Below, in pieces: positions 29,046 through 56,606 of a stretch of DNA of 64,000 bases. The notes beneath the pieces were generated by a model. It did not search any database and was not told where the DNA came from. It worked only from the letters and a program-made list of their open reading frames with translations. Origin of the DNA: Xestospongia bergquistia (taxonomy: Eukaryota; Porifera; Demospongiae; Haplosclerida; Petrosiidae). The DNA is taken from NCBI GenBank assembly GCA_963965975.1, contig OZ014413.1, forward strand, positions 2,048,501 to 2,112,500, read 5' to 3'. The first letter of the stretch is position 1. Each line of letters opens with the position of its first letter. The position numbers and the translations under genes are program-made.

Positions 29046-29782
29046 TAAAAGTTTGTCAAAATAACATTATGTAAAGCTGTTTGTAAATGTTCAATATTCT
29101 TATGGTCTCTAATTGTATCAAGAGCAAATATAACCTGTTCTTTACTAGAAAATTGGAGCAAATTCTCATGAAATAGTTCAACACTATTTTGTATCTTTAA
29201 TTTAAGTTGTTCATTAACTTCATACACTTTACTTTCATCAACACAATCTCTGTGAGTAGCAACGAGAAATGCAGCAGGTTCCGAGTCATCTTTAATTGGT
29301 AATTCATCAAATGTCCATCCAATCGTGTTTTGTCTTAAACAAGCAATACTGGCTAATGAACGAAAGATAGCTTCTTCAAGTGTATAAGATGATTCATAAG
29401 GTTCTAAATCATCATTGCTTGATCTATAAGTGATTTTGAAACAACTTCTGATGTCATCTGTAAGTTTAAAAGTAATTAAATTGATAGCTGGACCAGTGAT
29501 AAGTGCTGGTAAGATCTCATGAAACTCAGGTTGTCCTCCAGTATCAATGATGTGTAACAAAGCATGGCTACCCTCACTGATCTGTTCTGATGTAGCTACG
29601 TCTTCCAACTTAGCTCTATTAATAACATAATTAGTTTGTACAGTTTCTGATAAAGTTTGAACAGCTTTTATATTAGAAGATATAACTGGTTTTTCGTCAA
29701 AAAGGTCTAAAGTCATGTAGTTCCTGTTACCATTTTCATTGTCATCATGTATATAAGTCACAATGTCATCTTGTGTTTCATG
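29046..29782 (-). pseudogene. Inserted fragment of a Roc GTPase / COR coding exon
   Basis: An intronless stretch closely related to paralogue 2/3 coding sequence. It runs from METQDDI (with one G lost from ATGGAAACA, shifting the frame) through AVQTLSETVQTN, DTGGQPEFHEILPALITGP and ATHRDCVDESK to the start of COR (VILTNF). It has no ankyrin part, no P-loop and no effector exons. Both edges join 5' flank that is contiguous in paralogue 3 (about 56825-56880), so the fragment was inserted into the flank. Long open reading frame retained, so recent. Confidence 0.85.
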
Positions 29783-32327: not shown

Positions 32328-32445
32328 CTTTAATTTTCCAGACTGGCACGACAATAACCTCTGAATGAGCACCGCTACACTTCTTATCCTTCTCAGCTAA
32401 TAACAGTATCACGTGCCACTTCCACTCATGGTCTGACCAATCAGA
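32328..32445 (-). promoter_or_regulatory. Candidate promoter and untranslated first exon for paralogue 1
   Basis: On the minus strand, an inverted CCAAT box (32437-32441 on plus) and an E-box CACGTG (32410-32415) lie 80-110 bp upstream of a donor AAAG/GTTAGT, with the exon ending at 32328. The unit recurs at 48020-48145 upstream of paralogue 2 with the same spacing, and the block AGTGTAGCGGTGCTCATTC is well conserved. Splicing to the acceptor above the ATG would give a 3.5-kb 5' UTR intron. Inference only. Confidence 0.45.
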
Positions 32446-33460
32446 TTTCATCCTACTAATTAAGTAAATAAATTATTCATCTATGAATTTAAAATAAAGT
32501 GATATTCCTCTAACAGTTCTCATCGAGTTTCATGATAAATGTTATTTTTAAATTAAGTGATAATAAAGACGGAGGTAGTGACTGTAGAGATTATTATCTT
32601 TCACAATCAATCATAAGTAACAAACTTGTCGCTATCTCAATAGGAGACCAGTACTTGTTGTATGTTACATTAAGACCTGGATTGGCCTATATACTTGAGT
32701 ATAATCAAAGATATTAGTTATACAATTACTGACCTCAAATACTCATTTGACTGAATGATACATAATAAATGATGATATTAATGTTGTGGATAGTACATTG
32801 TATTCTATAAAGTTTGATATAAAGAGTTTTGTCAAAGCTGTTAAATTAATATATATAAAACAAAATATGTCAAGAGTTTTACTTACTTCAGTTATGAAAT
32901 AATATAACCTCCTCAGAAAGGTGTCATTAAACAGAGAGAAGAGAGACTGATTGACCATACAACTTACAATACCCTCTGGTAGTACTTAAAAATGCTTGTC
33001 ATTTCAAACCTAATGACAAAAGAATATTAAATTAAATTGGTTTGTGATATCAATGAGAAGTAAGTGTTTATATTATCATTTCATAACTAATATTTCTTGA
33101 TATTATGTAACTTTACTTCTTATCATCTCCTTCCATATCATTAGATATAATATGTCATTGTTATATTTAGTCACTAACAGTGGTAACTATTGAACGATCT
33201 ACATAGATACTGTCCTATTAATGATATACATGATTATAACATTTAATTTAGTTGATAATTCTATTAGTACTTACTTTATTAACTGAATTTATACATTATA
33301 AATAAGAGAGAATCTTCCATCTGTGTTTGTACTCATCCAAGAGTTCTAATCTATTAAGATAAAAATAAACATTTAATTTAATAAATGTGTATATTCTATA
33401 CAAATGTAAGTACATGTACTACAGGTATTTACAATGTAAGAGGCGCAATTCAATGTCTGC

Positions 33461-36400
33461 TTATACAGGGACTGCAACTAGAGAAGACAAAAGAATTAAT
33501 TAAACTACATGTGATTCATTATTAATGAATATGGATATATTAGCATCTTTTAAAGTATTTAAAGTAAGGAAAGATAGAATTTATTACTTGAGATTATAAA
33601 GCTTTCTGTCTATTGTTTTCATACACATGATTTTAATTAGTGCCCTTTTACTCATTGTCTCCTTCAATATACCAGTATTACTAATATTAGTAAGTGTATT
33701 ATATATTATATATATTTATAAACTTACCTTTTTAAAAAAATATCTTTTAAATTTACTGTATGATAATGTTAGAAGTTACTTCAGTCTTCATTTTGTACTT
33801 CTTTCTAATTCTAACATAATACTTAAACAATGTAACATACAACATAATACATACCTTTATATTTTGTTATGATTATGTCAGCTAAATCATCCCGACTTAT
33901 GTTATTTAAAACATTAAGGAAAGTCCCGAAAACACTACTATCATGCTTAATCTGATCCTTTAGGTCATCAAGAATGTTTTCAAGACGTTCCTCCGTTGTA
34001 TCTCTACATTCTTTATCTCTAACTCTTTTGTAAGTACTCTCAGAAATGACTTCTTTTGAGTGGAGTTTCCTCACAAGAGTAAAAGGGTCAATGTTTGATT
34101 CAACAATAGTATCTATACATTGAATTAGAGCTCTTCTAGCTATTTCAGAATTTAGTGAAGTACTAATTAGATCACTTGTGTCTAAAATAAAAACAAAAGT
34201 TAGTCTAATAAAGTGTGTCAATCAGTTTTGGAATTATATTAAACATATAATTTACAAATACAAACCTTATAACACAAGTACTTAGTAGCTACATAACACT
34301 ATCCTTTCTGTTCATATGCTCAATTTTTTATAATTGTTATTATCATTATGTTAACCTGATTTAGACAATGATGACTTTAGATGACCTTGTTCTTTTTTTT
34401 GTTTAATATGAGACTAAAGAAAGGATACAATAATTACTGATCACTGTTATATTTATCATCTTACCTCATTAATCCATATAGTATGTTGTTCTAATAGAGG
34501 AATAAAACCATTTCCATGAACACATCTAGCAGCTACTGGATCAGGATGTTCACATATAGCAGGATGAGGAAGTAAAGATTCACAAACAGTACATGGAAAA
34601 CCAAAGAAGTGGTGTGTCTTGTTTGTATAATGTAGAGACTCAGTTACAATCTGTATACTGTTATTAAGAGTTTTATAAACAGCTAAACAGAGTTCTGATA
34701 AAGGTAAGGCTTCACTAATTTTGGGTATACGATTGATTAATATCTTAAAGTAAGTGGCTCGACTAATAAGTGTAATCTTGTCATAACATTTACCAACCAA
34801 GAAGGTGATCTTGTTACGATAATGAGGTGGTTTGTCTAATGTCCATTTTAGTCCTGATTGTTGTTTTGTACTTATCAAATGAACTACTAAACAACAGAAC
34901 ATACCTACAGGACAGTAACCACATTCAAAGTAGATTAACAATGGAGCAGGAAACATGGAGAGGTTTCCAACATCTTGTTCAAGGGTAGTAGGCTTAAGAG
35001 CACAAGGTAAAAAGTAGTAGTTCTCATTTTTAAGACCTTTCATAGGACCAGCTATAATACGGAGATGCTTTAGTAGAGATACAAGTTTTAACGGAGTCAG
35101 AGGATCATTTCTTAAAAACAGCCTTCTTATAGCTGACTCTGAGAACTGGCCTATAGTATGAAACCTTTCTTCACTACCAGGTCTTTGTATTCCTCTAAAA
35201 GTAAAGCTGGATGTTATTAATCTGGTGATATGATCAAAAACAAGTTGAAGGTCAACAATAACAATGTCTTCTAATTCTTTAACATTGGGGTAATACATGA
35301 TACTACCCACTCTGTGATGTAAAAACCACAATGCTGACATGAACTCATCTCTATCAGATATACCACACTTCTGTGCAAGCTCATAACAGGTATCTAATTT
35401 GAAAATAGACTCACTCTTTCGTAACAATACATTAAAACTACACCAAGATACTGGAATATGTAACTCATTAAAGTTTGTCAACATAACATTATGTAAAACT
35501 GTTCGTAAATGTTCAATATTCTTTTGATCTCTAATTGTATCAAGAGCAAATATAACCTGCTCTTTACTTGAAAATTGGACCAAATTCTCATGAAATAGTT
35601 CAACGCTGTCTTGAATCTTTAATTTAAGTTGTTCATTAACTTCAGACACTTTACTTTCATCAACACAATCTCTGTGAGTAGCAATGAGAAATGCAGCAGG
35701 TTCAGAATCATCTTTAACTGGTAATTCATCAAATGTCCATCCAATTGTGTTTAGTCTTAAACATGCTATACTGGCTAAAGAACGAAAGATAGCCTCTTCA
35801 AGTGTATAAGATGATTCATAAGGTTCGAAATCATCATTGCTTGATCTATAAGTGATTTTGAAACAACTTCTGATGCCATCTGTAAGTTTAAAAGTAATCA
35901 AATTGATAGCTGGACCAGTGATAAGTGCTGGTAAGATTTCATGAAACTCAGGTTGTCCTCCAGTATCGATGATGTGTAACAAAGCATGGCTATCCTCACT
36001 GATCTCTTCTGATGTAGCTACGTCCTCCAACTTAGCTCTATTAATAACATAATTAGTTTGTACAGTTTCTGATAAAGTTTGAACAGCTTTTATATTGGAA
36101 GATATAACTGGTTTTTCATTATTAAGGTCTAAAGTCATGTAGTTCCTGTCATCATGTATGTAAGTCATAATGTCATCTTGTGTTTCCATGTTTTCTGAAT
36201 TAATTGTTGAAGAGTTGTAAACGTTGTCATGGCTCTTGCCACTGTCTTCAACCACTAGATCATTTTCATCTGTGTGTTTTAAGTATAAAATTGAATTGCT
36301 AATATCACTGGAGACAGGCTTTGCTAAAGTACTACTTAATACTCTTTCAAAAAGATAAACAGCTTCTTCATCTAAATCATGTTTTTTCCAATTGCAAACA

Positions 36401-39400
36401 TTATCTTCTAGTCCAGAGACTATGGCACTTACTTGTTGTAGTTTACGAAATGATTTAACTTGTATGGCTGAATCAACCACACCAGTACTGTTACAAGGTT
36501 CTAAAAGAGTCTCATTGAGTAACCTCTTCTTCAATGTACTTTTACCAGAACCAGGTGGTCCAGTTAATATACATTTTACAGCACGTAAACATATCACTCC
36601 ACTGCTTTTCAATGCCTGTTGAAACTTGATATGGTACTCTAGTAATCTTCGTAATTCATCATCATAATTTACATCATTCAATGACACAAGTGTTTGGCAT
36701 TCTGAATGACTAATAAAATATTTAACCAGAACTTTGTTCTTTAAATTACAAGCAATTTGTAAAGGAGAACAACCTGAGTGATCTTTAACATTTATGTCAC
36801 AACCAGTTTCTTCGACTAGATACTGGACAATTTCCAATTGATTCTTCTCACAAGCTATGTGGAGGGAAGTGGAATCATGTTGTCCCTTAGCATTAATGTC
36901 ACAACCTGCTTCTTCAACTAAATATCTCACTAACTCTACATTCCCAGAAAAACGACAGGCTAAGTGGAGTGGTCTCTCGCCATCTTTGTCTCCAGCTTCT
37001 CGATTACATTCAGTTTTTGAAGTTAGAAACTTGACAATTTCTAATTGATTCTTCTCACAAGCTATGTGGAGGGAAGTGGAATCATGTTGTCCCTTAGCAT
37101 TAATGTCACAACCTGCTTCTTCGAATAGATACTTCACTAACTCTACATTACCAGAAACTAAACTTGCTATATGAAGTGGTCTGTTGCTATTATTGTCTCC
37201 AGCTTCTCGATTACATTCAGTTTTTGAAGTCAGAAACTTGACAATTTCTAATTGATTCTTCTCACAAGCTATGTGGAGGGAAGTGTAGTCATGTTGTCCC
37301 TTAGTATTAATGTCACAACCTATTACTTCGACTAAATATCTCACTAACTCTACATTCCCAGAAAAACGACAGGCTAAGTGGAGTGGTCTCTCGCCATCTT
37401 TGTCTCCAGCTTCTCGATTACATTCAGTTTTTGAAGTTAGAAACTTGACAATTTCTAATTGATTCTTCTCACAAGCTATGTGGAGGGAAGTGGAATCATG
37501 TTGTCCCTTAGCATTAATGTCACAACCTGCTTCTTCGACTAGATACTTCACTAACTCTACATTACCAGAAACTAAACTTGCTATATGAAGTGGTCTGTTG
37601 CTATTATTGTCTCCATCTTCTCGATTACATTCAGTTTTTGAAGTCAGAAACTTGACAATTTCTAATTGATTCTTCTCACAAGCTATGTGGAGGGAAGTGG
37701 AATCATGTTGTCCCTTAGCATTAATGTCACAACCTGCTTCTTCGACTAGATACTTCACTAACTCTACATTACCAGAAACTAAACTTGCTATATGAAGTGG
37801 TCTGTTGCTATTATTGTCTCCAGCTTCTCGATTACATTCAGTTTTTGAAGTCAGAAACTTGACAATTTCTAATTGATTCTTCTCACAAGCTATGTGGAGG
37901 GAAGTGGAATCATGTTGTCCCTTAGCATTAATGTCACAACCTGCTTCTTCGACTAGATACTTCACTAACTCTACATTACCAGAAACTAAACTTGCTATAT
38001 GAAGTGGTCTGTTGCTATTATTGTCTCCAGCTTCTCGATTACATTCAGCTTTTGAAGTTAGAAACTTGACAATTTCTAATTGATTCTTCTCACAAGCTAT
38101 GTGGAGGGAAGTGGAATCATGTTGTCCCTTAGCATTAATGTCACAACCTGCTTCTTCGACTAGATACTTCACTAACTCTACATTACCAGAAACTAAACTT
38201 GCTATATGAAGTGGTCTCTCGCCATCTTTGTCTCCAGCTTCTCGATTACAGTCAGTTTTTGAAGTTAGAAACTTGACAATTTCTAATTGATTCTTCTCAC
38301 AAGCTATGTGGAGGGAAGTGGAATCATGTTGTCCCTTAGCATTAATGTCACAACCTGCTTCTTCGACTAGATACTTCACTAACTCTACATTACCAGAAAC
38401 TAAACTTGCTATATGAAGTGGTCTGTTGCTATTATTGTCTCCAGCTTCTCGATTACATTCAGTTTTTGAAGTCAGAAACTTGACAATTTCTAATTGATTC
38501 TTCTCACAAGCTATGTGGAGGGAAGTGTAGTCATGTTGTCCCTTAGAATTAATGTCACAACCTGCTTCTTCGACTAGATACCTCACTAACTCTACATTGC
38601 CCGAAAAAGCACAGGCAATATGAAGTGGTCTGTAGCTATTATTGTTTCCAGCTTCTCGATTACATTCAGTTTTTGAAGTCAGAAACTTGACAATTTCTAA
38701 TTGATTCTTCTCACAAGCTATGTGGAGGGAAGTGGAATCATGTTGTCCCTTAGAATTAATGTCACAACCTGCTTCTTCGACTAGATACTTCACTAACTCT
38801 ACATTACCAGAAACTAAACTTGCTATATGAAGTGGTCTGTTGCTATTATTGTCTCCAGCTTCTCGATTACATTCAGTTTTTGAAGTTAGAAACTTGACAA
38901 TTTCTAATTGATTCTTCTCACAAGCTATGCGGAGGGAAGTGTAGTCATTATTTCCCTTAGCATTAATGTCACAACCTGCTTCTTCGACTAGATACCTCAC
39001 TAACTCTACATTGCCCGAAAAAGCACAGGCAATATGAAGTGGTCTGTTGCTATTATTGTCTTCAGCTTCTCGATTACATTCAGTTTTTGAAGTTAGAAAC
39101 TTGACAATTTCTAAATGATTTTTGGCACTAGCCAAGTGTAGGGAAGTGTAGTCATTATTTCCCTTAGCATTAATGTCACAACCTGCTTCTTCGACTAGAT
39201 ACCTCACTAACTCTACATTGCCCGAAAAAGCACAGGCTATATGAAGTGGTCTGTAGCTATTATTGTCTCCAGCTTCTCGATTACATTCAGTTTTTGAAGT
39301 CAGAAACTTGACAATTTCTAATTGATTTTTGGCACTAGCCAAGTGTAGGGAAGTGCAGTCATTATTTTCCTTAGAATTAATGTCACAACCTGCTTCTTCA

Positions 39401-42400
39401 ACTAGATACCTCACTAACTCTACATTGCCCGAAAAAGCACAGGCAATATGAAGTGGTCTGTTGCTATTATTGTCTCCAGCTTCTCGATTACATTCAGTTT
39501 TTGAAGTTAGAAACTTGACAATTTCTAATTGATTCTTCTCACAAGCTATGTGGAGGGAAGTGGAATCATGTTGTCCCTTAGCATTAATGTCACAACCTGC
39601 TTCTTCGACTAGATACTTCACTAACTCTACATTACCAGAAACTAAACTTGCTATATGAAGTGGTCTGTTGCTATTATTGTCTCCAGCTTCTCGATTACAT
39701 TCAGTTTTTGAAGTCAGAAACTTGACAATTTCTAATTGATTCTTCTCACAAGCTATGTGGAGGGAAGTGTAGTCATGTTGTCCCTTAGAATTAATGTCAC
39801 AACCTGCTTCTTCGACTAAATATCTCACTAACTCTACATTCCCAGAAAAACGACAGGCTAAGTGGAGTGGTCTCTCGCCATCTTTGTCTCCAGCTTCTCG
39901 ATTACATTCAGTTTTTGAAGTTAGAAACTTGACAATTTCTAATTGATTCTTCTCACAAGCTATGTGGAGGGAAGTGTAGTCATGTTGTCCCTTAGAATTA
40001 ATGTCACAACCTGCTTCTTCGACTAGATACCTCACTAACTCTACATTGCCCGAAAAAGCACAGGCAATATGAAGTGGTCTGTAGCTATTATTGTTTCCAG
40101 CTTCTCGATTACATTCAGTTTTTGAAGTCAGAAACTTGACAATTTCTAATTGATTCTTCTCACAAGCTATGTGGAGGGAAGTGGAATCATGTTGTTCCTT
40201 AGCATTAATGTCACAACCTGCTTCTTCGACTAGATACTTCACTAACTCTACATTACCAGAAACTAAACTTGCTATATGAAGTGGTCTGTTGCTATTATTG
40301 TCTCCAGCTTCTCGATTACAGTCAGTTTTTGAAGTTAGAAACTTGACAATTTCTAATTGATTCTTCTCACAAGCTATGTGGAGGGAAGTGGAATCATGTT
40401 GTCCCTTAGCATTAATGTCACAACCTGCTTCTTCGACTAGATACTTCACTAACTCTACATTACCAGAAACTAAACTTGCTATATGAAGTGGTCTGTTGCT
40501 ATTATTGTCTCCAGCTTCTCGATTACATTCAGTTTTTGAAGTCAGAAACTTGACAATTTCTAATTGATTCTTCTCACAAGCTATGTGGAGGGAAGTGTAG
40601 TCATGTTGTCCCTTAGAATTAATGTCACAACCTGCTTCTTCGACTAGATACCTCACTAACTCTACATTGCCCGAAAAAGCACAGGCAATATGAAGTGGTC
40701 TGTAGCTATTATTGTTTCCAGCTTCTCGATTACATTCAGTTTTTGAAGTCAGAAACTTGACAATTTCTAATTGATTCTTCTCACAAGCTATGTGGAGGGA
40801 AGTGGAATCATGTTGTCCCTTAGAATTAATGTCACAACCTGCTTCTTCGACTAGATACCTCACTAACTCTACATTGCCCGAAAAAGCACAGGCTATATGA
40901 AGTGGTCTGTTGCTATTATTGTCTTCAGCTTCTCGATTACATTCAGTTTTTGAAGTCAGAAACTTGACAATTTCTAATTGATTTTTGGCACTAGCCAAGT
41001 GTAGGGAAGTGCAGTCATTATTTTCCTTAGAATTAATGTCACAACCTGCTTCTTCAACTAGATACCTCACTAACTCTACATTGCCCGAAAAAGCACAGGC
41101 AATATGAAGTAGTCTGTTGCTATTATTGTCTCCAGCTTCTCGATTACATTCAGTTTTTGAAGTTAGAAACTTGACAATTTCTAATTGATTCTTCTCACAA
41201 GCTATGTGGAGGGAAGTGTAGTCATTATTTCCCTTAGAATTAATGTCACAACCTGCTTCTTCAACTAGATACCTCACTAACTCTACATTGCCCGAAAAAG
41301 CACAGGCAATATGAAGTGGTCTGTTGCTATTATTGTCTCCAGCTTCTCGATTACAGTCAGTTTTTGAAGTTAGAAACTTGACAATTTCTAATTGATTCTT
41401 CTCACAAGCTATGTGGAGGTAAGTGGAATCATGTTGTCCCTTAGCATTAATGTCACAACCTGCTTCTTCGACTAGATACTTCACTAACTCTACATTACCA
41501 GAAACTAAACTTGCTATATGAAGTGGTCTGTTGCTATTATTGTCTCCAGCTTCTCGATTACATTCAGTTTTTGAAGTCAGAAACTTGACAATTTCTAATT
41601 GATTCTTCTCACAAGCTATGTGGAGGGAAGTGTAGTCATGTTGTCCCTTAGAATTAATGTCACAACCTGCTTCTTCGACTAGATACCTCACTAACTCTAC
41701 ATTGCCCGAAAAAGCACAGGCAATATGAAGTGGTCTGTAGCTATTATTGTTTCCAGCTTCTCGATTACATTCAGTTTTTGAAGTCAGAAACTTGACAATT
41801 TCTAATTGATTCTTCTCACAAGCTATGTGGAGGGAAGTGGAATCATGTTGTCCCTTAGAATTAATGTCACAACCTGCTTCTTCGACTAGATACTTCACTA
41901 ACTCTACATTACCAGAAACTAAACTTGCTATATGAAGTGGTCTGTTGCTATTATTGTCTCCAGCTTCTCGATTACATTCAGTTTTTGAAGTTAGAAACTT
42001 GACAATTTCTAATTGATTCTTCTCACAAGCTATGCGGAGGGAAGTGTAGTCATTATTTCCCTTAGCATTAATGTCACAACCTGCTTCTTCGACTAGATAC
42101 CTCACTAACTCTACATTGCCCGAAAAAGCACAGGCAATATGAAGTGGTCTGTTGCTATTATTGTCTTCAGCTTCTCGATTACATTCAGTTTTTGAAGTTA
42201 GAAACTTGACAATTTCTAATTGATTTTTGGCACTAGCCAAGTGTAGGGAAGTGCAGTCATTATTTCCCTTAGAATTAATGTCACAACCTGCTTCTTCAAC
42301 TAGATACCTCACTAACTCTACATTGCCCGAAAAAGCACAGGCAATATGAAGTGGTCTGTTGCTATTATTGTTTCCAGCTTCTCGATTACATTCAGTTTTT

Positions 42401-44499
42401 GAAGTCAGAAACTTGACAATTTCTAAATGATTCTTATCACAAGCTATGTGGAGGGAAGTGGAATCATGTTGTCCCTTAGCATTAATGTCACAACCTGCTT
42501 CTTCGACTAGATACTTCACTAACTCTACATTACCAGAAACTAAACTTGCTATATGAAGTGGTCTGTTGCTATTATTGTCTCCAGCTTCTCGATTACATTC
42601 AGTTTTTGAAGTCAGAAACTTGACAATTTCTAATTGATTCTTCTCACAAGCTATGTGGAGGGAAGTGTAGTCATGTTGTCCCTTAGTATTAATGTCACAA
42701 CCTATTACTTCGACTAAATATCTCACTAACTCTACATTCCCAGAAAAACGACAGGCTAAGTGGAGTGGTCTCTCGCCATCTTTGTCTCCAGCTTCTCGAT
42801 TACATTCAGTTTTTGAAGTTAGAAACTTGACAATTTCTAATTGATTCTTCTCACAAGCTATGTGGAGGGAAGTGGAATCATGTTGTCCCTTAGAATTAAT
42901 GTCACAACCTGCTTCTTCAACTAGATACCTCACTAACTCTACATTGCCCGAAAAAGCACAGGCAATATGAAGTAGTCTGTTGCTATTATTGTCTCCAGCT
43001 TCTCGATTACATTCAGTTTTTGAAGTTAGAAACTTGACAATTTCTAATTGATTCTTCTCACAAGCTATGTGGAGGGAAGTGTAGTCATTATTTCCCTTAG
43101 CATTAATGTCACAACCTGCTTCTTCGACTAGATACCTCACTAACTCTACATTGCCCGAAAAAGCACAGGCAATATGAAGTGGTCTGTTGCTATTATTGTC
43201 TTCAGCTTCTCGATTACATTCAGTTTTTGAAGGTAGAAACTTGACAATTTCTAATTGATTTTTGGCACTAGCCAAGTGTAGGGAAGTGCAGTCATTATTT
43301 CCCTTAGAATTAATGTCACAACCTGCTTCTTCAACTAGATACCTCACTAACTCTACATTGCCCGAAAAAGCACAGGCAATATGAAGTGGTCTGTTGCTAT
43401 TATTGTTTCCAGCTTCTCGATTACATTCAGTTTTTGAAGTCAGAAACTTGACAATTTCTAAATGATTCTTATCACAAGCTATGTGGAGGGAAGTGGAATC
43501 ATGTTGTCCCTTAGCATTAATGTCACAACCTGCTTCTTCGACTAGATACTTCACTAACTCTACATTACCAGAAACTAAACTTGCTATATGAAGTGGTCTG
43601 TTGCTATTATTGTCTTCAGCTTCTCGATTACATTCAGTTTTTGAAGTTAAAAACTTGACAATTTCTAATTTTTTTTTGCCACAAGCCCAGTGGAGGGAAG
43701 TATAGTCATTTCCTCCTTTAGCATTAATGTCACAACCTGCTTCTTCGACTAAATACCTCACTAACTCTACATTGCCAGAAAAACAGGCCAAATGAAGTGA
43801 TCTGTTGCCATCTTTGTCTATACTCTCTATATTATATTTAATGTTATTAATGAGATATTTAACAATGTTTACATCACCTAATGAAGCAGAGTAATGTAAA
43901 GGAAATAATACTTTACCATGAAGCCATTGAACAATATTATCTTTGATTACAAGATTAGCTAAGGTCACATGATTCTCTTTGATCACTCTGTACATAAAAT
44001 TTCTAAAAGATATTTTCTTCAGTAATAGTTTCATTATTTCATAAGTTGAAACTTTCACACAATGATAGATATTATCTGGAGATAGTACAATGTCTTGACT
44101 ACACACAAATGAAACAATGTCTAGATGTTGATTTATACATGCATAATAAAGAGGGGTGTGGCCATGTATATCATGACATGACTCGAAAGCATCTTGCTGG
44201 TGAACACATAAGAATCTAACAAACTCAAGTTTACCAGCGATACATGCTAAATGAAGCAGAGAAGAGCTCTCCTTATTAACTAAGGAGCCACAATTAACAA
44301 TACCAGATATACTAATAAGGTACTCTAAAACCTCTAATCCACATTGAACAGAACTACAGCACAAGTGAAATAAAGTGTTCCCTTGATCATCACGTATCCA
44401 AGGGGAAGCTCCTAGTTTAATAAGTCTCATGACATTATACAGATCACCTCTAGTACAAGCAGTACAAAGTTCACTTGTATATGACTCCATTGCTGACAT
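33461..44499 (-). CDS. Giant ankyrin / Roc-COR GTPase / CARD-like protein (paralogue 2)
   Basis: Four exons: 34465-44499 (10,035 nt), 34356-34413, 33855-34181 and 33461-33477, totalling 10,437 nt or 3478 residues. The start is MSAMESY; the inner ATG at 44490 matches the starts of the other paralogues. Residues 1-225 are diverged ankyrin repeats. About 225-2590 is a huge array of near-identical paired ankyrin repeats. A Roc GTPase follows: P-loop GPPGSGKST near 2648, DTGGQPEFHE near 2850, THRD near 2940. The COR domain contains WFLHHRVGSIMYYPN, then FPCTVCESLLPHPAIC. The third exon encodes a CARD-like helical domain with the same length (327 nt) and phases as the CARD-like exon of paralogue 1. 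The short last exon (VAVPV, stop) is the least certain. There is no Death domain. A cytoplasmic sensor or scaffold is inferred. Confidence 0.78.
36798..43840 (-). repeat. Coding array of about 34 units of 207 bp (paired ankyrin repeats)
   Basis: Each 207-bp unit encodes two ankyrin repeats (69 residues), for example the part VELVRYLVEEAGCDIN followed by LEIVKFLTSKTECNREA. Register is kept exactly: the rare variant VIGCDINTK recurs at 37319 and 42701, 5382 bp apart (26 units), and a rare CGG-for-TGG change recurs at 38930 and 42035, 3105 bp apart (15 units). Units differ by few bases including synonymous sites, so they were amplified or homogenised recently. The last unit is a half-unit chimera (LEIVQYLVEETGCDIN). 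Confidence 0.95.
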
Positions 44500-46030
44500 G
44501 GTTACTGTAAAAATATAACAAACACACTAATAATATCCTTATTAATCCAGTGATAAGTGACTAAATTTTAGACAACTAAAGTATTTGTACTATATAGTAG
44601 ATATAATATGTTGTGACTTTTCTCTTAGAGATATACTGATTTGTTGTGACATATGACTATTTTAATAAAGTGTTCTATTGTACAACAGAAAATATCAACA
44701 TGGTATTTGATTTGGTAATTTACCTAATCAAAAATTTTGAAAAATAAAACTGATTGAAATGACATTTATGTTCTGTAATATTTTGACATAGCAATCATAT
44801 AGTTGTTTGATGTATTTCTGCGAAAAATATGAAAAAGGAATTATTCTCCTATCACTGAAAACTATACTTTGTTTTACTGCTATATATAACAACGTAATTT
44901 CTTCTCTTGACTAAAAGTTGCTTCAAAATGACACAGTTTCAAAAAAACTACCATGAATGATAGCGTGTGTAGATGAATAAAGAAGATCCATAAAGCCTTA
45001 TAGTTTATTTGACAAGTGAATAAATGCTCTAGTTGTTTAACACAACAAAAGCCTCTTCCTTATTAATAATTTTAGAAACATGTCCACTAACTTTTACTTG
45101 TTTAGTTTATTCCCAGTCTGAGTTATAAAGTTAAGTGAAGCATCAAACTAAAGATTATCAATAACTTGATATATAACATTAGAGTGAAATGTTAAACTCA
45201 AAATTGAACAGATAACTCACAGTTCAGAGAAAGTAGCATACTATCATAATGTCAATTGGATACTTTGAATGCTTTAAAAGACTTGTTAGTGACCATTAAT
45301 TATATGGTATGACCTGATTATAAATTTTGGCCTGTTTTTAATGAAGTCAACAGCTAGGCTGGCTAGCTAGCTATAAAACAGGTCATCATAATTATTCAAT
45401 GTAAATATCTGTGACTTGTTTTAATTGTGAATAGGACCTAAAAAAAGTCAATAGCATCTAAAAAACATCCAGCTGGTACTCTAGCTTAAAAACGTCTACA
45501 TGTTATAATATGTTTTTAATTTATTTTTAAGACCATTATATGCAAATAAAATAGAATACAAAACAATTGTCACATGTAATTCTATTGACACCATCAGTCC
45601 AGAAACCAACTTATACTTTCTCCTACATTGCTAACATAAAATGTATCCAGTATATAAAATGGTTTTTTAACTTGTGTTGACTTAGTTGTAAAGCATATAA
45701 GACAAGATGCCATATTTTGAAAGCATAATAACATTTGCAAGTATACAAATAATGATTTCTAAGAAAAAAATGACAAATCATTATCATTTTGTAAGCAATC
45801 AATTTCATAGGACAATAGCAAACATAAAATGGTAAGTATGTTTCATTTCACTCTAACATTTTGTAAACTGATATCATTGTGGTATCTGTATAACATATAT
45901 TGTAAATCAACCAATTAGTTTTACAGTGTTAAGTGCTACAATGATGAGTGTAACTGAAATGGTGTGCAATATTAGCAATGCAAGAAAACAACGAACAAAC
46001 AAATTTAAACAATGAAAAGAGCAGGTCTGT
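44500..46030. other. Upstream flank of paralogue 2
   Basis: Carries the shared acceptor above the ATG (TTTTTACAG then TAACC) and about 1 kb homologous to the flanks of paralogues 1 and 3 (for example around AATTATTCTCCTATCA at 44838). No coding sequence seen. It probably lies in a 5' UTR intron, which would also contain the Mutator-like element that follows. Confidence 0.55.
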
Positions 46031-47760
46031 AACAAGCCATTAGCGACAGAAGGTTAGCATCCAGTAAAATCCCGTATTCTAAGGGCATCCTGAAGTCACG
46101 TGCTTGACTACACGTGTTAGCAACTTGCAACAAAACGTGTTAGCAACTTGCAAGAACTAAGTATGTCTGTTTGCAAGCAACTAAGTATGTCTGTTTGCAA
46201 GCATTGTGATAAGACCTTTCAGCACAAATCCAGTCTATCAAGACATGTTAAAGCTGTTCATGAGGTAGACAGTTGCTCAGTCTTCTGCAATGAATGTCAT
46301 GACAGGTGAACAATAATAATTTGTAGTCACAAAAGTATCATTAATTATGATCATATTATGTACTAACCACACTATATATGATGCATGACAAAATAATTTT
46401 CATGGGTCAGCTCAGTAGGGAAGCCTGAGGTGAATATTTTTTTGTGAACACACAGTGAATTTTCAGTACTATTTTACTAGAACTCAGTAAATTTCTAACT
46501 CAGTGACTTAAGAATTTCATCTATCATTTTCATATTCATTAGATTTCTGAATCCAAAGGATCTGATATCTCACCTAAATAGTTCTCATAATAAGAATATT
46601 GTGTTGGAAGAACATAATTTTGAAAGTTTTTCTCAATTTCTTGATTGGAAACTCGCTGAAGAGAAAAAAAGCAACTCCCATTCAACAATGTGGAACTCAA
46701 CTAACAGCAGACAAGAAAGGGAAACGTTATTACTTCTACTGTAATCGATCTGGGAAATATGTGCCAAAGGGGGCTGGAAGTCGTCAATTAAAATTACAAG
46801 GATCATGTAAAATTGGCAACGCATGCTCGGGTTACATGAAGGCTCATCAAGACATCGACTCAGATGCTGTTCATGTGGAGTATTGCTCTCATCACCACAA
46901 TCATGAAATACAATTAGCCCACTTGACAATGGATGCCCAATTGCGAGCAAAAATAGCAACTAAGCTGCATGAAGGTGTCTCTGAAAAGAAAATACTTGAT
47001 GAAATCAGAGATAATGTTACGAGTAGCATTGGAAGAGAGCACTTAATTTCAATTCAAGATATTCAGAATATTGGTCGTCAGTATAATGTTGAAGGAGTAC
47101 AGCGGCATCAAAATGATCTTCAGAGTGTTGACATATGGGTCGAAGAAATGAGGAACGAATCCTATAATCCAATTTTGCTTTACAAAACTCAAGGTGTTGA
47201 ACAAGGTAACGATGTTGATAATCTTGCCAAAGATGATGTATTGTTGTGCATTCAAACTGAATTTCAAAAAGACATGGCAAAGAAGTTTGGGAATAACAAG
47301 GTTATATTTATTGATTCAACACATAGCACAACAATATATGATTTCTTGCTAATTACCGTAATGGTTGTTGACGAGTTTGATGAAGGTGTACCAATTGCAT
47401 GGGCCATCAGCAATCGTGAAGATCAGAGTGTTCTCATTGAGTTTTTTAAACCATTAAGGCCAAGGTTGGAAACCTCGTACCAAAATTTTTCATGTCTGAT
47501 TGTGCCGAACAAGTCTATAATCCAATGCACTGAGTGTGGTGTGTGGGTGTATAAATCTTGTTCTGGTTTATTGGACACAGATTATGATGATTACTTTTGT
47601 AAAAATTGTCTTAAAAAATTAATATCATGCCTTTACATACTGTTGATTTAATACTGAAAATTTTTTATTAATTCTAGAGTTGACTTTACACATGATTTCA
47701 GGATACTCGTAGAATACGGGATTTTACTGGATGCTAACCTTCTGTCGCTAATGGCTTGTT
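46031..47760 (+). mobile_element. Mutator-like DNA transposon, internally deleted
   Basis: A 1730-bp element with perfect 51-bp terminal inverted repeats starting AACAAGCCATTAGCGACAG (46031-46081 and 47710-47760). The similarity extends imperfectly to about 72 bp. It contains a C2H2 zinc-finger exon and a partial Mutator-family transposase. No clear target-site duplication could be read. It is inserted in the upstream region of paralogue 2; the paralogue 1 segment resumes homology near 32090. Confidence 0.9.
46163..47651 (+). pseudogene. Mutator-like transposase with C2H2 finger, frameshifted and truncated
   Basis: Exon 1 (46163 or 46187 to 46305) encodes a C2H2 finger, CKHCDKTF then HVKAVH, ending at GACAG/GTGAAC. 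Exon 2 starts at 46543 with FLNPKDLISHLN, reads to FSQFLDWKLAEEKKSNSH, and must shift frame near 46682 to enter IQQCGTQLTADKK. It then continues with a FAR1-like zinc region (YYFYCNRSGKY, CSHHHNHE) and the start of the MULE catalytic core (IDSTHSTTIYDFLLITVMVV). After RPRLETSYQNF an internal deletion joins to a small cysteine-rich end (CTECGVWV, FCKNC) resembling a PHD finger. The catalytic core is incomplete, so the copy should be inactive, mobilised only in trans. Confidence 0.8.
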
Positions 47761-48019
47761 AATTATGCCATGTAGCCATCATACTATTCTCTTTGGTGAT
47801 TCAAAATTTATTTCTTCTTCGATATCAAAAACCTCCAGTTTAGGGAATAAAGTGATGATGATACTAGTTAGATCAACAAAATTAACTCTGAACATTTGCT
47901 CACGGTACGTAGCTGGCGGGATAACATTATTTTTCCATTATTACTATCGAGCGAGAGTCTTAAGCGCTATATATACACCAATGTATAATTAGTAATTACT
48001 ATTTAAGTGTTATACTAAC

Positions 48020-48145
48020 CTTTATTTCTTATTTGATACGGGAATGATCTCTGAATGAGCACCGTTACACTTCTGCAAATACCCCAGCAGATACAGTAAT
48101 TAATCACGTGCCAGTAACATTCCAATATCTATGGTCTGACCAATG
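48020..48145 (-). promoter_or_regulatory. Candidate promoter and untranslated first exon for paralogue 2
   Basis: Counterpart of 32328-32445. CCAAT box 48140-48144, E-box CACGTG 48105-48110, conserved GGTGCTCATTCAGAG, and a donor AAAG/GTTAGT with the exon ending at 48020. It lies about 3.5 kb upstream of the paralogue 2 ATG. Conservation of the donor and both boxes while the rest drifts supports function. No transcript evidence. Confidence 0.45.
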
Positions 48146-48826
48146 AGATTTTAATTGTCACTCCTACTAGTTAAATAAATAAATTATTCATTATAATGAA
48201 TATAAGCTTGAGTGATATTTTTTCTAATTTAAACTGTTCTCAGTGTGAGTTTCAAAATATAGATACTCAAATAAAGTGACAATGAAGACTGAGATAGTGA
48301 TTGTTGAGATTATCATCTTTAATGATCAACCATTTGTAACTAAGTGGTTGTTATCAATAGGTAACCAGTTAAAATACACTTGTTGCATGTTATACCAAAT
48401 CTTGGATTGATCTATATACTTGAGTATAATCAAAAATATTAGTGATACAATTACTGACCTCGAATACTTTAAATTCCATTTGTTAGGCAGCATGACACAT
48501 AATAGATGATGATTTTTAGGGTAGTTCCTTGTGTCTTAAAGTTTGATGTAAAGAGTCTCGTGGAAACTGTTAAATTGATAGATATTAAACAAAATAGACC
48601 AAGAATAATTTACATCTGATATAATGAGTAGAAAAAAACAGAAAGGTGAAATTAAACTAAGAGGAGAAAGACTGATTGAGTAAAAAAGCTTATGAAACTC
48701 TCTGGTAGTAATCAAAATGCTTGTCATTTCAAACCTAATGACAAAAGAATATTAAATTGATTGGTTTGTGATAACAATGAGAAGTAAGTGTTCACATTAC
48801 TATTTCATAACTAATATTTCTTGATA

Positions 48827-49110
48827 TACCGTATAGCGGGATTTATTGGCGACCGATAAAATTTGGTGAATTGATGAATTTTGAAAAATTGCCAAATTAA
48901 ATAACACTCAAAATTTATCATGTAGTCACCACGCCCACATACCTACAATCTGTACACATGAAAGAATCAAACCTGAACTCCATTTTTATTTCATTAAAGT
49001 GGGTGTGGTAACAAGACATGTGCTAAATTCGTTAAATTTAATCTCACCAATTATAAAATTTTACAATTCCACCAAATTTTATCGTCGCCAATAAATCCCA
49101 GTATATGGTA
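48827..49110. mobile_element. 284-bp MITE with terminal inverted repeats
   Basis: Begins TACCGTATAGCGGGATTTAT and ends with the inverted counterpart (AATCCCAGTATATGGTA). The imperfect inverted repeat is about 45 bp and includes GGCGAC and AAAATTTGGTG. The homologous segment of the other duplicate (near 33108) lacks it, giving an empty site. Likely TA target. Confidence 0.85.
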
Positions 49111-50323
49111 CTCTACTTCTTTATCATCTCCTTCCATCATTATTAGGATTTTCATGTTATATTTAGTCACTAACAGTGGTAACTATTGAATGGTCTACAT
49201 AGATACTGTCCTATTAAAGATATACATTATTATAACATTTAATTTGGTTGATAAATTTATTAGTACTTACTTTATTAAGTGAATTTATACATTATAAATG
49301 AGAGAGGACCATCCATCTGTGTTTGTACTCATCCAACAGTTTAATCTATTAAGATAAAAATAAACATTTAATTTAATAATTATGTATATTCTATGCAAAT
49401 GTAAGTACATGTACTACTGCCATCAATATTGAATGTGAAAGTAACAAATACTATATTACAGTTAGACACAAGACCAAGTATCTATGTTACTGAATATTCC
49501 AAAAGTCTTTTATAGCTACCAAGTATGAAGAATAAGGAATCATTGACATGTTCTAAGTTTTAGTAGATATTTCTGTATTTTATACACTTGAAACTGACAA
49601 ATAACATTCCTAAACTATGTATGTCCCTATAAACTCATTATTAGTCAATTTTATTGTTTCCATGGAGTTTGTTGTGATAGTAACTGAGAAATGTTAACCA
49701 CAATACATAAGTACAATAAAGAGCATTATTGCTCTATAAGATATTATATGAAAACAGGTGATAAGATAATTAAGTTTGTTAAAAATGTAATAAAACATAT
49801 TTCTGAAAGTGAAAGTAACAAATAGTACAGGTATATTGACAATGCTCTAGTTACATCTTACCTATTAATATTGACTCCTCCTCCATATTATAGAATACCA
49901 TAGTGTCGGTTTGTGATAGAGAAACATATTTAGATTACACAGAGAGAATGAAGTACCATCTTAAAATTCAGACTAGTCAGGATACATTTCAAGGTTAGGG
50001 GATGTTAATATTTAACCAAAGAATGATACCTACATGGTATAATAAAATATTTATTTAATAAACGGTATAGTTTCTGTTGGTGTTAGTCAGTGAATGTTGT
50101 CATTAATCACCATAATTATATAATCATAAATATAATAAAGTGTAGACTTACATATATAGTCATTGTATTGTAATAAGAGCTTACTTACAATGCATGAAGC
50201 ATTAGAGACAGTGATGTTATGTTAATCAGAGACACATTTAAATGTATGTTCATACTGGGAAAATGACTAAGGAACACTAAGGTAATATAAACAAACCACT
50301 CTATGGCAACAAACTTGATTACC

Positions 50324-53300
50324 TTATTTTCGAGATGAATGATCTCTACGAGGCTGATCACTTCTTTTTGTCCTTTCTGTTACAATATAACATGATAGAA
50401 CATTTTCTAAAGATGTACCATATTCTTTTTCTTTCTCTCTGTATGACCTCCCCTTTGCAGGTTCTTTGTTATATCTACTTGATGTGTCATACAACTTTCT
50501 CCTGGGTGTGTGCTCACCAGAAGATATCAATTCAGGACTTGCTTGTTTACATCTTTCTAAAGGAAAAGTGATATTCATATAAACACAATACAGCTATTTA
50601 CTTTTATGTTTTTGTTCTCTTGGTGGTGACAGAGACAGTCTTTCTCTATATCCTTTTTTCAGATAAGATTTCTTATTTAAAGGTTCTTTGCCATATTTAG
50701 TTGATGTGTCATACAACTTTCTCCTGGGTGTGTGCTCACCAGAAGATATCAATTCAGGATTTGTTCTTTTACTTCCTGTAAAGGAAAAGTGATATTCATA
50801 TAAACACAATACTGTTATTTACTTTTATGTTTTTGTCCTCTTGGTGGTGACCGAGACAGTCTTTCTCTATATCCTTTTTTCAGATAAGATTTCTTATTTA
50901 AAGGTTCTTTGCCATATTTAGATGATGTGTCAGGTGATATGTATCTATGCTGATGTTTTGTTCTTCTAGGACTAAGAGTTTCATATTCCAACTGTTCCGA
51001 ACCTGATTCCTCTGATGTAGACCTCCTTCTTTTCCCTGTGATAAAAACAAAATTAGGAAATACTGATTGATAAACATGTGCCAAACAGTACTATAATCAT
51101 TTAGGACCATGTGGTTTGCATCTACAGTTTGCTTTATTCCATTGTTGTATAAACATCTCTGATGCTCCCTAAGCTAATATGTTACAATATGACATTAACA
51201 TACAATTATAGGATGATTTATTAAGTATAGTCATCATCACCTTTGTTTCTTGATTTGAATTCCTTCTGTGTTGATGATGAAGACATACTAGTACGAGATC
51301 CTTTTCTTTTCAGAGAAATTTCTCTAAGTGGTAGTTTATGTTCATTTGGGTTGATACTTAAAATATGTTCTCGTATTTCATTAGCAACTGCTTTCTTTTC
51401 CACAATTGGACCCTCTACTGCAGAAATGATACTGTTCCAAGTCACTTTTGTAGTGCACTGATCCATCCAACATTGTAATACTGATGATAACTTATTTTTA
51501 TTTTCTAAATTATTTTGTAATAGACTCATTAATACTGTATTAGGGACTCCTAATGCTTCTCCAATGCTTTGCCATTGATCACTAATACAAGCCAGCAAAT
51601 TAAGAAGATCTTGTTTCTTTGGTTTTGAATGAAATATGTCATCTATTAATACATAACATTAAATAAATAAAATAAAGTATACTTGAACATACAAATTATA
51701 AATTGTTATTATCATTATGTTAACCTGATTTAGACAATGATGACTTTAAATGACCTTGTTTTTCTTTTTGTTTAATGTGAGACTAAAGAAAGTATACAAT
51801 AATTACTGATCACTGTTATCTTCATCATCTTACCTCATTAATCCATATAGTATGTTGTTCTAACAGAGGAATAAAACCATTTCCATGAACACATCTAGCA
51901 GCTACAGGATCAGGATGTTCACATATAGCAGGATGAGGAAGTAAAGATTCACAAACAGTACATGGAAAACCAAAGAAGTGGTGTGTCTTGTTTGTATAAT
52001 GTAGAGACTCAGTTACAATCTGTATACTGTTGTTAAGAGTTTTATATACAGCAAAACAGAGTTCTGATAAAGGTAACGCTTCACTAATTTTGGGTATACG
52101 ATTGATTAATATCTCAAAGTAAGTGGCTCGACTAATAAGTGTAATCTTGTCATAACATTTACCAACCAAGAAGGTGATCTTGTTACGATAGTGAGGTGGT
52201 TTGTCTAATGTCCATTTTAGTTCTGATTGTTGTGTTGTACTTATCAAATGAACTACTAAACAACAGAACATACCTACAGGACAGTAACCACATTCAAAGT
52301 AAATTAACAATGGACCAGGAAACATGGAGAGATTTCCAATATCTTGTTCAAGGGTAGTAGGCTTAAGAGCACAAGGCAAGAAGTAGTAGTTCTCATTTTT
52401 AAGACCTTTCATAGGACCAGCTATAATATGGAGATGCTTTAATAGAGATACAAGTTTTAATGGAGTCAGAGGATCATCATTTCTTAAAAACAGCCTTCTT
52501 AGAGTTGACTCTGAGAATTGGCCTATAGTATGAAACCTTTCTTCGCTACCAGGTCTTTGTATTCCTCTAAAAGTAAAGCTGGATGTTATTAATTGAGTGA
52601 TCCGATCAAAAACAAGTTGAAGGTCAGTGATGACAATGTCTTCTAACTCTTTAACCTTGGGGTAATACATGATACTACCCACTCTGTGATGTAAAAACCA
52701 CAATGATGACATGAACTCATCTCTGTCAGATATACCACACTTCTTAGCAAGCTCATAACAGGTATCTAGTTTGAAAATAGACTTCTTACTCTTTCGTAAC
52801 AATACATTAAAACTACACCAAGATACTGGAATATATAACTCATTAAAGTTTGTCAAAATAATATTATGTAAAGCTGTTCGTAAATGTTCAATATTCTTTT
52901 GGTCTCTAATTGTATCAAGAGCAAATATAACCTGTTCTTTACTAGAAAATTGGACCAAATTCTCATGAAATAGTTCAACACTGTCTTGTATCTTCAATTT
53001 AAGTTGTTCATTAACTTCAGACACTTTACTTTCATCAACACAATCTCTGTGAGTAGCAATGAGAAATGCAGCAGGTTCTGAATCATCTTTAACTGGTAAT
53101 TCATCAAATGTCCATCCAATTGTGTTTTGTCTTAAACAAGCTATACTAGCTAATGAACGAAAGATAGCTTCTTCAAGTGTGAAAGATGATTCATAAGGTT
53201 CTAAATCATCATTGCTTGATCTATAAGTGATTTTGAAACAACTTCTGATGTCATCTGTAAGTTTAAAAGTGATTAAATTGATAGCTGGACCACTGATAAG

Positions 53301-56300: not shown

Positions 56301-56606
56301 GCCATCTTGATGCTGAACAAATAAGAATCTAACAAACTCAAGTTTACCAGCGATACATGCTAAATGAAGTAGAGTTGAGCCCTCATAATTAACTAAGGAG
56401 CCACAATCCACTATACCAGAGATACTAATAAGGTACTCTAAAACCTCTAATCTACATTGAACAGAACTACAGCACAAGTGAAATAAAGTGTTCCCTTGAT
56501 CATCACGTATGTGAGGAGAAGCTCCAAGTTCAATAAGTCTCTTGATATTTTCCAGATCACCTCTAGTACAGGCAGTACAAAGTTCAGTTGCTAAATATGA
56601 CTCCAT
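50324..56606 (-). CDS. Ankyrin / Roc-COR GTPase / Death protein with arginine-serine tail (paralogue 3)
   Basis: Exons: 51834-56606 (4773 nt), 51241-51643, 50823-51035, 50602-50775 and 50324-50556, totalling 5796 nt or 1931 residues. A small exon at 51725-51782, used in paralogue 2, is also present but including it breaks the frame. Exon 1 has diverged ankyrin repeats to about residue 215, eight to nine paired-ankyrin units to about 860, P-loop GPPGSGKST near 887, DTGGQPEFHE near 1090, THRD near 1187, COR (WFLHHRVGSIMYYPK) and FPCTVCESLLPHPAIC. The next exon is a Death domain (LLACISDQWQSIGEALGVP, VLQCWMDQ, TWNSIISAV). The last three exons are homologous arginine/serine-rich tails with the repeated motif YGKEPLNKKSYLKKGYRE. 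The start is MESYLATELC at 56606; longer upstream reading runs through a 3' splice acceptor. Confidence 0.78.
50602..51035 (-). repeat. Tandemly duplicated tail exons
   Basis: The exons at 50823-51035 and 50602-50775 share almost identical ends (YGKEPLNKKSYLKKGYRE then SPPR-QKHK) with identical following donors. The exons at 50602-50775 and 50324-50556 share near-identical beginnings (PELISSGEHTPRRKLYDTS). The three arose by exon duplication and exchange. All inner junctions are phase 1. Confidence 0.9.
54180..55940 (-). repeat. Ankyrin-coding 207-bp units with a four-unit (828-bp) higher-order period
   Basis: Paired-ankyrin units in paralogue 3 are more diverged than in paralogue 2. Their subtypes recur in order: HKDY, QNGY, N-x-x-Y, QNDY, then again HKDY, QNGY, N-x-x-Y, QNDY. 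This points to duplication of a block of four units, followed by divergence (KPECNREA, KQECNREARAKD and similar signatures pair up). Confidence 0.85.

Follow-up and report, generated by a model that had tools for sequence, protein, structure and literature searches.

Probable exchange of C-terminal cassettes among ankyrin-Roc-COR genes of the sponge Xestospongia bergquistia

Three neighboring genes and their tails

We analyzed a 64,000-nucleotide stretch of the genome of the sponge Xestospongia bergquistia (assembly GCA_963965975.1, contig OZ014413.1, which we call C3; C3:2048501-2112500). We refer to this stretch as the window, and positions without a contig name are positions within it; the genome that we searched comprises 146.5 Mb in 21 contigs. 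The minus strand of the window carries three ankyrin-Roc-COR genes, P1, P2, and P3, each with a giant open reading frame (25690-28857, 34465-44526, and 51834-56666). P2 and P3 have nearly the same GTPase switch, yet the cassettes that follow it are unrelated, and the tail of P3 recurs on a gene for a GTPase of another family (guanylate-binding protein, GBP). We put the probability at roughly 0.7 that the tails are cassettes that can be exchanged within this family, with P2 and P3 being two of the products.

Our models of P2 and P3 are complete, with GT-AG splice sites and matching phases. In P2, the giant exon (34465-44526; 3356 amino acids from stop to stop) encodes the ankyrin array, a Roc-like GTPase, and COR, and ends at the donor GTAAGATG. 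It is followed by a linker exon of 58 nt (34356-34413; GT-AG, phase 0 to 1), a CARD-like exon of 327 nt (33855-34181; phase 1-1), and a splice into a 3' block (32070-33422) that is shared with P3 and in which a stop codon comes immediately. In P3, the giant exon (51834-56666; 1613 amino acids) has the same content and is followed by a linker of 58 nt (51725-51782), which is also supported by its GT-AG sites and phase. Next come a Death-like exon of 402 nt (51241-51642; phase 1-1), tail exon 1 (50823-51035; 213 nt, phase 1-1), tail exon 2 (50602-50775; 174 nt, phase 1-1), and tail exon 3 (50323-50556), which contains the stop codon in the splice model. Tail exon 2 lies within a tandem duplication (50459-50711 and 50681-50932, 93.3% identical). 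An earlier prediction from the sequence of the window (the original prediction) described one CARD-like exon in P2 and a Death exon with three tail exons in P3, and the splice models agree.

P1 was predicted to have both Death and CARD-like exons. It does have both, but that picture was incomplete, as ZU5 and UPA-like exons lie between them. The N-terminus of P1's giant exon (25690-28857, a stop-to-stop frame) resembles that of P3, while its GTPase and COR resemble those of F7491, a paralog at C3:7.49 Mb. Downstream are a Death-like domain (25246-25542; 73-75% nucleotide identity to the Death exons of P3 and the GBP gene), a ZU5 domain (22063-22506), UPA-like exons (21073-21464), and a CARD-like exon of 327 nt (20350-20676).

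In P2 and P3, all four internal exons of the cassettes (the CARD-like exon, the Death-like exon, and tail exons 1 and 2) have lengths divisible by three and phase 1-1; this count excludes the Death exon of P1. The linkers of P1, P2, P3, and a related gene on contig C2 (37, 58, 58, and 58 nt) all exit in phase 1, so a cassette that recombined into the intron behind the linker would stay in frame. The CARD exons of P1 and the C2 gene are also 327 nt long. The exchanged units thus have the symmetric phases expected of an exon-shuffled family.

P2 and P3 share their flanks but not their cassettes

When we compared the window to itself with blastn, the switch, the linker, and the start of the intron behind it aligned at 94.2% identity (34328-36823 in P2 and 51696-54210 in P3), which bears out the claim that the giant GTPase exon and the linker are shared. 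Sequence beyond the 3' ends is shared too, as claimed: 33104-33422 matches 49104-49417 at 90.6% identity, and 32070-33103 matches 47753-48827 at 73.3%. P3's 3' block (47753-49417) includes a 276-bp insert with inverted-repeat ends (48828-49103) that is in neither P2 nor the GBP gene.

Between these homologous blocks lie 905 bp in P2 (33423-34327) and 2,278 bp in P3 (49418-51695), close to the 0.9 and 2.2 kb first estimated, and blastn found no match between them in the window's self-comparison. The best local alignment of the two cassettes scores just 27 in the forward orientation and 32 in reverse. For 200 dinucleotide shuffles (forward), the mean score was 29.2 and the maximum was 38, and 156 of the 200 reached the actual forward score, so we reject hidden homology. 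As a positive control, the P3 cassette scores 1513 against its copy on the GBP gene. Comparing the CARD and Death cassettes as profiles did not reveal a relation either (hhalign E = 0.13, probability 0.5%). Homology across the cassettes had been named beforehand as evidence that would count against the original prediction; neither the alignments nor the shuffles detected any.

The 3' homology is not exclusive to P2 and P3, as had been supposed. In a genome search that skipped very common words, the block was found at four loci, which led us to reject the idea that it is a dispersed repeat. Besides P2 and P3, which share the whole of P2's block, its first 531 bp lie behind the GBP gene (C3:1567048-1567555, 88% identity) and there is a partial copy at 59303-59771.

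The phrase "same sensor and switch" from the original prediction holds for the switch but not for the whole sensor. The giant frame of P2 is much longer than that of P3 (3356 vs. 1613 amino acids) because its ankyrin array is longer. P2's array (36817-43819, minus strand) is made of units of about 207 bp, and shifted self-alignments have 83-93% identity over up to 7 kb. This self-identity is a sign of recent expansion or homogenization, and P3's array is far shorter. Across the N-terminus, GTPase, and COR, the synonymous divergence (dS) between P2 and P3 is 0.11-0.13. Just upstream of P1, embedded in sequence otherwise homologous to the 5' flanks of P2 and P3, the GTPase exon has an isolated 735-bp copy (29045-29779, minus strand), which is 95.2% identical to P3 and 92.7% identical to P2.

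Domains of the tails and of the switch

The original prediction proposed searches with hidden Markov models for CARD and Death. These show profile similarity, with scores short of the curated cut-offs. P2's exon scores 22.5 bits against Pfam CARD (PF00619, E = 1.1e-4, cut-off 23.9), and P3's exon scores 15.3-16.3 bits against Pfam Death (PF00531, E = 0.022, cut-off 22.6). P1's CARD-like exon scores 13.9 bits (E = 0.056, below the same CARD cut-off), and its Death-like domain has no match to Pfam Death. Across the aligned exons, the CARD profile matches 3 of 9 (E ≤ 0.01) and the Death profile 2 of 8 (E ≤ 0.05). When we searched the sequences of the PDB, there was no convincing match for CARD; for Death, FADD was found at E = 0.67-0.84.

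We also predicted structures with AlphaFold2 from two-row alignments of proteins from the window only. The models of P2's CARD and P3's Death domain each have six helices (mean pLDDT, the predicted local distance difference test, of 69.7 and 66.7). Searching with Foldseek, the first nine matches for P2's model are CARD structures (probability 0.75-0.97, E ≥ 0.43), with Apaf-1/caspase-9, MDA5/MAVS, CARMA1, and BinCARD at the top. For P3's model, the first match is a designed protein (D_1CY5_M1) and the second through fourth are the death domains of FADD, Fas/FADD, and TNFR1 (E ≥ 1). Because the E-values are 0.4 or worse, we take these matches as consistent support only. Overall, the weak but consistent similarities suggest a CARD fold for P2's tail and a Death fold for P3's.

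Matches to the switch domains keep the order of Roc then COR in P1 and P3, and all are below the cut-offs. For COR-A, P3 scores 31.3 bits (E = 2.3e-7) and P1 scores 27.3 bits (cut-off 35.3); for Roc, P1 scores 25.0 bits (cut-off 27) and a piece of P3 that lacks the P-loop part scores 13.3 bits. The P-loop itself (GPPGSGKS) is present in both P2 and P3. Using 22 Pfam families, we found no kinase in P1's giant exon; separate upstream exons were not covered by this search.

The tail of P3 on a GBP gene

Our genome search with the P3 cassette found a copy at C3:1563999-1567047, on the opposite strand and 0.53 Mb away, in pieces with 93, 88, and 83% identity. The copy runs on into the 3' block, so that cassette and block are contiguous (C3:1.564-1.5676 Mb) except for a transposon-like insert. 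(By eye, one tail intron of this copy contains a hAT-like open frame.) By window, identity between P3 and this locus is 81-98% in the cassette and 79-94% in the 3' block; past tail exon 1 it is 81-89%, with 92.8% in the last window. Tail exon 1 is 96% identical over 68 codons. The dS is 0.06 for the Death exon (134 codons) and 0.07 for tail exon 1 (68 codons).

An assembly artefact or collapsed haplotypes might produce such copies, and tandem repeats and near-identical stretches do assemble poorly. However, most windows show differences of several percent between the copies, the splice sites and frames of P2 and P3 are intact, and the loci are far apart on one contig of 11.5 Mb, which makes this explanation very improbable.

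The gene with the copy is a GBP: a 162-aa piece of the gene at C3:1.5585 Mb scores 115 bits against the GBP N-terminal domain (cut-off 21.1, E = 4.5e-33). The tail locus appeared in neither of our searches for COR (all 14 candidates scored in one; best 61 of 452 in the other). The gene encodes, in order, Death, GBP, a coiled coil, a second coiled coil like that of P1, ZU5, UPA-like, Death, and the tail exons, and it ends in the 3' block. Its ZU5 is just above the Pfam cut-off (21.9 vs. 21 bits); P1's ZU5 is below it (18.7 bits, E = 0.0022). The two ZU5 exons are 97.1% identical as DNA (dS = 0.03), whereas dS is near 1 for the UPA-like exons that come next, as would be expected if only a short tract had been exchanged. 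The UPA-like exons of P1 have no match to Pfam UPA, and we named them for their place after ZU5 and their 49-53% amino-acid identity to the GBP gene. Near the end of ZU5, both P1 (22063-22506, ending in SQFSLIAIVKS) and the GBP gene (C3:1562190-1562633) have SQFS, a putative F/S cleavage site.

The tail appears to be an addition to this GBP gene. The array at C3:1.516-1.597 Mb has 11 GBP matches (10 full length and 1 partial), and the cassette search hit just 1 of the 11. Similarly, ZU5 was found on 1 of the 11, among the best 150 of 313 ZU5 candidates. Both neighbors that we examined (2/2) have their last coiled-coil exon, with the same donor, in common with the grafted gene, which diverges from them about 10 bases past that donor. 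As read by eye, the donor has phase 1 and would fit the P1-like coiled-coil exon in frame. Close to the Death-GBP genes, two open frames (L009 952-1224 and L010 8881-9165, plus strand) encode a hydrophobic leader followed by GDVELNPGP, which we take to be a 2A-like motif.

Comparing the three loci also locates the joints. In P3, sequence like P2's ends at AACAATTTATAA and sequence shared with the GBP gene begins at AATTTATAATTTG, with an overlap of about 9 nt (51696-51704), in the intron between the linker and the Death exon. At the other end, P3 and the GBP gene continue together across 49417, the boundary between P2 and P3, so the joint on this side is absent from P3 and present in P2. P2's 3' joint is the edge of the homology block that is common to P2, P3, and the GBP gene. 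The original prediction considered replacement of the tail by recombination within flanking homology. P2's 3' joint fits this, but P3's 5' joint does not: with an overlap of only about 9 nt, there is no flanking homology on both sides.

Mosaic genes across the family

With a 730-aa query from the switch, we found at least 13 closely related giant members, plus fragments; seven of the members are on C3 or C2 and the other six on C15 (among the best 61 of 452 matches). In a tree of COR domains, P2 and P3 pair with support of 100/99; the C2 gene joins them (100/100), and then N4 (82/75), a gene 15 kb to the right of the window. P1 pairs with F7491 instead (99/97).

Other parts of the genes give other relationships. 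At the N-terminus, P1 is closer to P3 (dS = 0.33) than to F7491 (0.76), while in the GTPase it is far closer to F7491 (0.05 vs. 0.86 to P3). The COR of the C2 gene is closer to P3 and P2 (dS = 0.36-0.38) than to P1 (1.26), while its CARD is closer to P1 (0.41) than to P2 (0.84). The CARD end of the C2 gene, coding and non-coding, is 77-88% identical to that of P1, and in the CARD tree, P1 and C2 group together (100/98) with P2 outside. Scanning P1 in 300-base windows, the best partner is first P2, P3, N4, or C2, next F7491, after that the GBP gene, and finally C2, and some windows have no partner. By these comparisons, P1 and the C2 gene are mosaics. The Death domain of P1 gives dS of 0.43 to P3 and 0.84 to F7491, and we considered this as further evidence of exchange. 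We dropped it because the protein tree conflicts, grouping this domain with F7491 and F7524 (the program warns of long branches meeting there).

Is P1 a living copy of an ancestor with both domains? This now seems too simple. Because P1 is a mosaic, and its CARD groups with that of C2, it is a poor stand-in for such an ancestor.

The original prediction also suggested a survey for further tail combinations. Besides the tail of P3 on a GBP gene behind ZU5-UPA, this showed that 21 of 94 ZU5 matches are followed on their own strand, at a distance of no more than 4.5 kb, by a CARD-like exon (and 1 of the 94 is preceded by one). Conversely, a ZU5 match lies upstream of 21 of 80 CARD matches and downstream of 1 of the 80. 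CARD behind ZU5 is a frequent setting, although most CARD matches do not have one of these ZU5 matches nearby. One of the 50 best Death matches lies upstream of ZU5 in 11 of the 94 cases and downstream in 1. The genome searches gave 983 candidates for Death and 313 for ZU5 (the best 150 of each were scored), so both the death-fold and ZU5 families are very large in this genome.

Traces of older arrangements may survive in non-coding sequence. Just upstream of P2's CARD-like exon, an intron stretch (34206-34273) has a relative in an intron of N4 (C3:2126562-2126638, 80.5% identity, E = 1e-15), which is the only other match in the 362,578 bases compared. Sequence related to 49639-49707 of P3 occurs in the 3' flanking DNA of N4 and of the C2 gene but not in P2. 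We saw no CARD exon behind the intron of N4 that contains the pre-CARD sequence, and the tail exons of N4 are followed by a Death-like frame.

How the tails came to differ

We propose that the tails are exchangeable cassettes, either a CARD-like exon or a Death exon plus its tail exons, in some cases with ZU5-UPA in front. They would have been moved among the ankyrin-Roc-COR genes, and onto or from a GBP-type gene, by ectopic recombination or gene conversion. The sequence comparisons show that recombination moves tails between genes in this family: the GBP gene carries copies of P3's tail and of some of its 3' flank, and P1 and the C2 gene are mosaics.

Several points weigh against this reading as an account of P2 and P3. 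The GBP copy is evidence that tails move, and it is not evidence that P2 or P3 arose by replacement. The exon joins of P1, P2, and P3 are based on splice consensus, phase, and open frames, and the Pfam scores of the CARD and Death tails of P2 and P3 are below the cut-offs. In an approximately unbiased (AU) test, a clade of the CARDs of P1, C2, and P2 is not rejected (P = 0.175). Ratios of dN/dS near 0.95 (0.94 for the Death exons of P3 and the GBP gene; 0.95 for the ZU5 exons of P1 and the GBP gene) give no sign of purifying selection on the shared copies. And an ancestor with both domains could have been pruned twice, with one deletion per gene sufficing.

In this last scenario, which the original prediction also raised, P2 and P3 descend from a gene in which the CARD and Death cassettes stood one after the other; the Death and tail exons then disappeared from P2 and the CARD from P3, with no replacement. 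P1 does have both kinds of domain. Also, the distribution of the non-coding relatives (the pre-CARD stretch of P2 in N4, and 49639-49707 of P3 in N4 and C2) looks as if an older 3' end had been split. However, none of the members that we examined has a P2-type CARD and a P3-type Death domain in one gene, and P1, the apparent model for the ancestor, is a chimera with a CARD of the C2 type. We consider double pruning a minority possibility and prefer cassette exchange. Replacement by recombination, the other option in the original prediction, thus stands for the family, given the GBP copy (79-98% identical) and the mosaics, but not yet for P2 and P3 themselves.

If cassettes were exchanged, the signals on direction conflict. 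We lean towards the Death tail being older in the pair. The GBP gene would then have received its copy from the P2 lineage, and P2 would have gained its CARD cassette later. In the 3' block, P3 alone differs at 40 sites, the GBP gene at 32, and P2 at 15 (about 8 of P2's are in a non-homologous lead-in), so the GBP gene is closest to P2; windows of P2 and the GBP gene are 92-97% identical without gaps, or 88% with gaps. The P3 flank motif that is common to N4 and C2 fits as well. But this is a comparison of three sequences, which cannot be rooted, and the dS values between P3 and the GBP gene (0.06 for Death and 0.07 for the tail exon) are numerically below those between P2 and P3, which points to a later exchange between P3 and the GBP gene. 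This order of events is quite possible, if short of even odds.

In the opposite direction, the state of P2 would be older, and the Death tail of P3 would have come from the GBP gene or from the source of that gene's tail. This would explain the clean joint in P3 and why dS between the Death exons of P3 and the GBP gene is lower than dS between P3 and P2. C2, a sister gene, has a terminal CARD as well. But that CARD is not of P2's type in the tree, and just 1 of the 11 GBP matches has the tail, which makes the GBP gene look like a recipient. We view this direction as rather unlikely, slightly more so than double pruning.

Comparison with known systems

DAPK and other Roco proteins have the order ankyrin, Roc, COR, Death, and P3 has the same order. 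Unlike DAPK, there is no kinase in P1's giant exon, P2 has a CARD in place of Death, and tails are exchanged.

Domain shuffling in immune receptors is already known as a principle. In brown algae, ROCO genes are candidate immune receptors that are diversified by shuffling of leucine-rich repeat exons, according to the portion of the article available to us (PMC11378527). There the recognition repeats are shuffled, while in the sponge's Roc-COR genes it is the output tails. In the zebrafish NLR-B30.2 genes, the portions available of another study describe gene conversion that differs between parts of the gene and N-terminal variants that are not tied to groups (PMC4852459). The sponge genes are similar in that conversion acts on parts of a gene, but in zebrafish these are the recognition and NACHT parts, and in the sponge it is the C-terminal death-fold output, across two families of GTPases.

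Zebrafish Gbp3 and Gbp4 combine GBP with a C-terminal CARD, and FIIND is named in the Figure 1 legend of the article (PMC4932187, available portions). Like them, the sponge GBP gene has a GBP-type GTPase, then ZU5-UPA (FIIND), and then a death-fold domain, so it resembles the zebrafish GBP-FIIND-CARD fusion, by common or separate origin. Unlike them, it ends in a Death-like domain with tail exons, its tail closely resembles the one on an unrelated ankyrin-Roc-COR gene, and the arrangement was seen on one gene of the GBP cluster only. CARD8, NLRP1, and PIDD cleave themselves after ZU5 at SF/S or HF/S, and the serine is needed in CARD8 and NLRP1 (PMC3210808, available portions). P1's order of ZU5-UPA-CARD is like FIIND-CARD in NLRP1 and CARD8, the GBP gene's ZU5-UPA-Death is like PIDD, and the QFS at the end of both ZU5 domains is similar to these sites, although with Q before F. 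Unlike NLRP1, CARD8, and PIDD, our models of P2 and P3 have no ZU5-UPA.

Among sponges, the TRADD-N family of Amphimedon has 357 proteins, most with Death-like domains and up to half with unique domain combinations (PMC8195603). That study is a catalogue of architectures, and in its available portions we found no description of exchange joints. The main text of a paper on NLRs in Dysidea avara (PMC12909245) does not contain the words Roco, ankyrin, shuffling, or recombination. In the available portions of the open-licence literature in PMC, we did not find a case in which Roc-COR and GBP genes had exchanged output tails and the joint was resolved.

Other elements in the window

An open frame at 8615-9373 (minus strand) resembles, by eye, the death-fold plus TRADD-N type of protein described for Amphimedon (available portions of PMC8195603); it has no Pfam match at E ≤ 0.01. 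Between P2 and P3, a 357-aa frame (46578-47651, plus strand) resembles, by eye, a MULE/FAR1-type transposase. An 890-bp inverted repeat (60197-61086 and 62683-63572) is 100% identical between its copies, and its own ends repeat inverted; it is probably a young mobile element.

Implications for signaling

P2 and P3 are predicted to act inside the cell, with the ankyrin array as sensor, Roc-COR as switch, and the tail as the part that carries the output. Roco GTPases dimerise, and CARD and Death domains nucleate filaments. It is likely that binding of a ligand to the ankyrin array, or clustering of its repeats, makes the Roc-COR GTPase oligomerise, and the tail would then seed a CARD or Death-domain assembly that recruits its own kind. 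A swap of the tail would re-route the signal, so that P2 and P3 would pass similar signals to different death-fold partners. The original prediction had the same switch wired to different death-fold adaptors; the AlphaFold2 models and Foldseek matches are consistent with different outputs of P2 and P3 at the level of the fold, and the claim stands to that extent.

More speculatively, this might be a standing exchange system, in which phase-1 tail cassettes have moved repeatedly between ankyrin-Roc-COR and GBP genes while the switch exon was kept, and individuals may differ in which tail goes with which sensor. We think that this is possible but doubtful.

The usual view is that immune receptors diversify at the recognition end. 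If our reading is correct, the sponge genes would be a case of diversification of the output in innate immunity: the output end varies while the GTPase switch is nearly constant, and one output is common to a GTPase of another family. They would also allow a natural test of whether CARD and Death assemblies can both be driven by a single switch, and of how wiring can change without breaking the reading frame.

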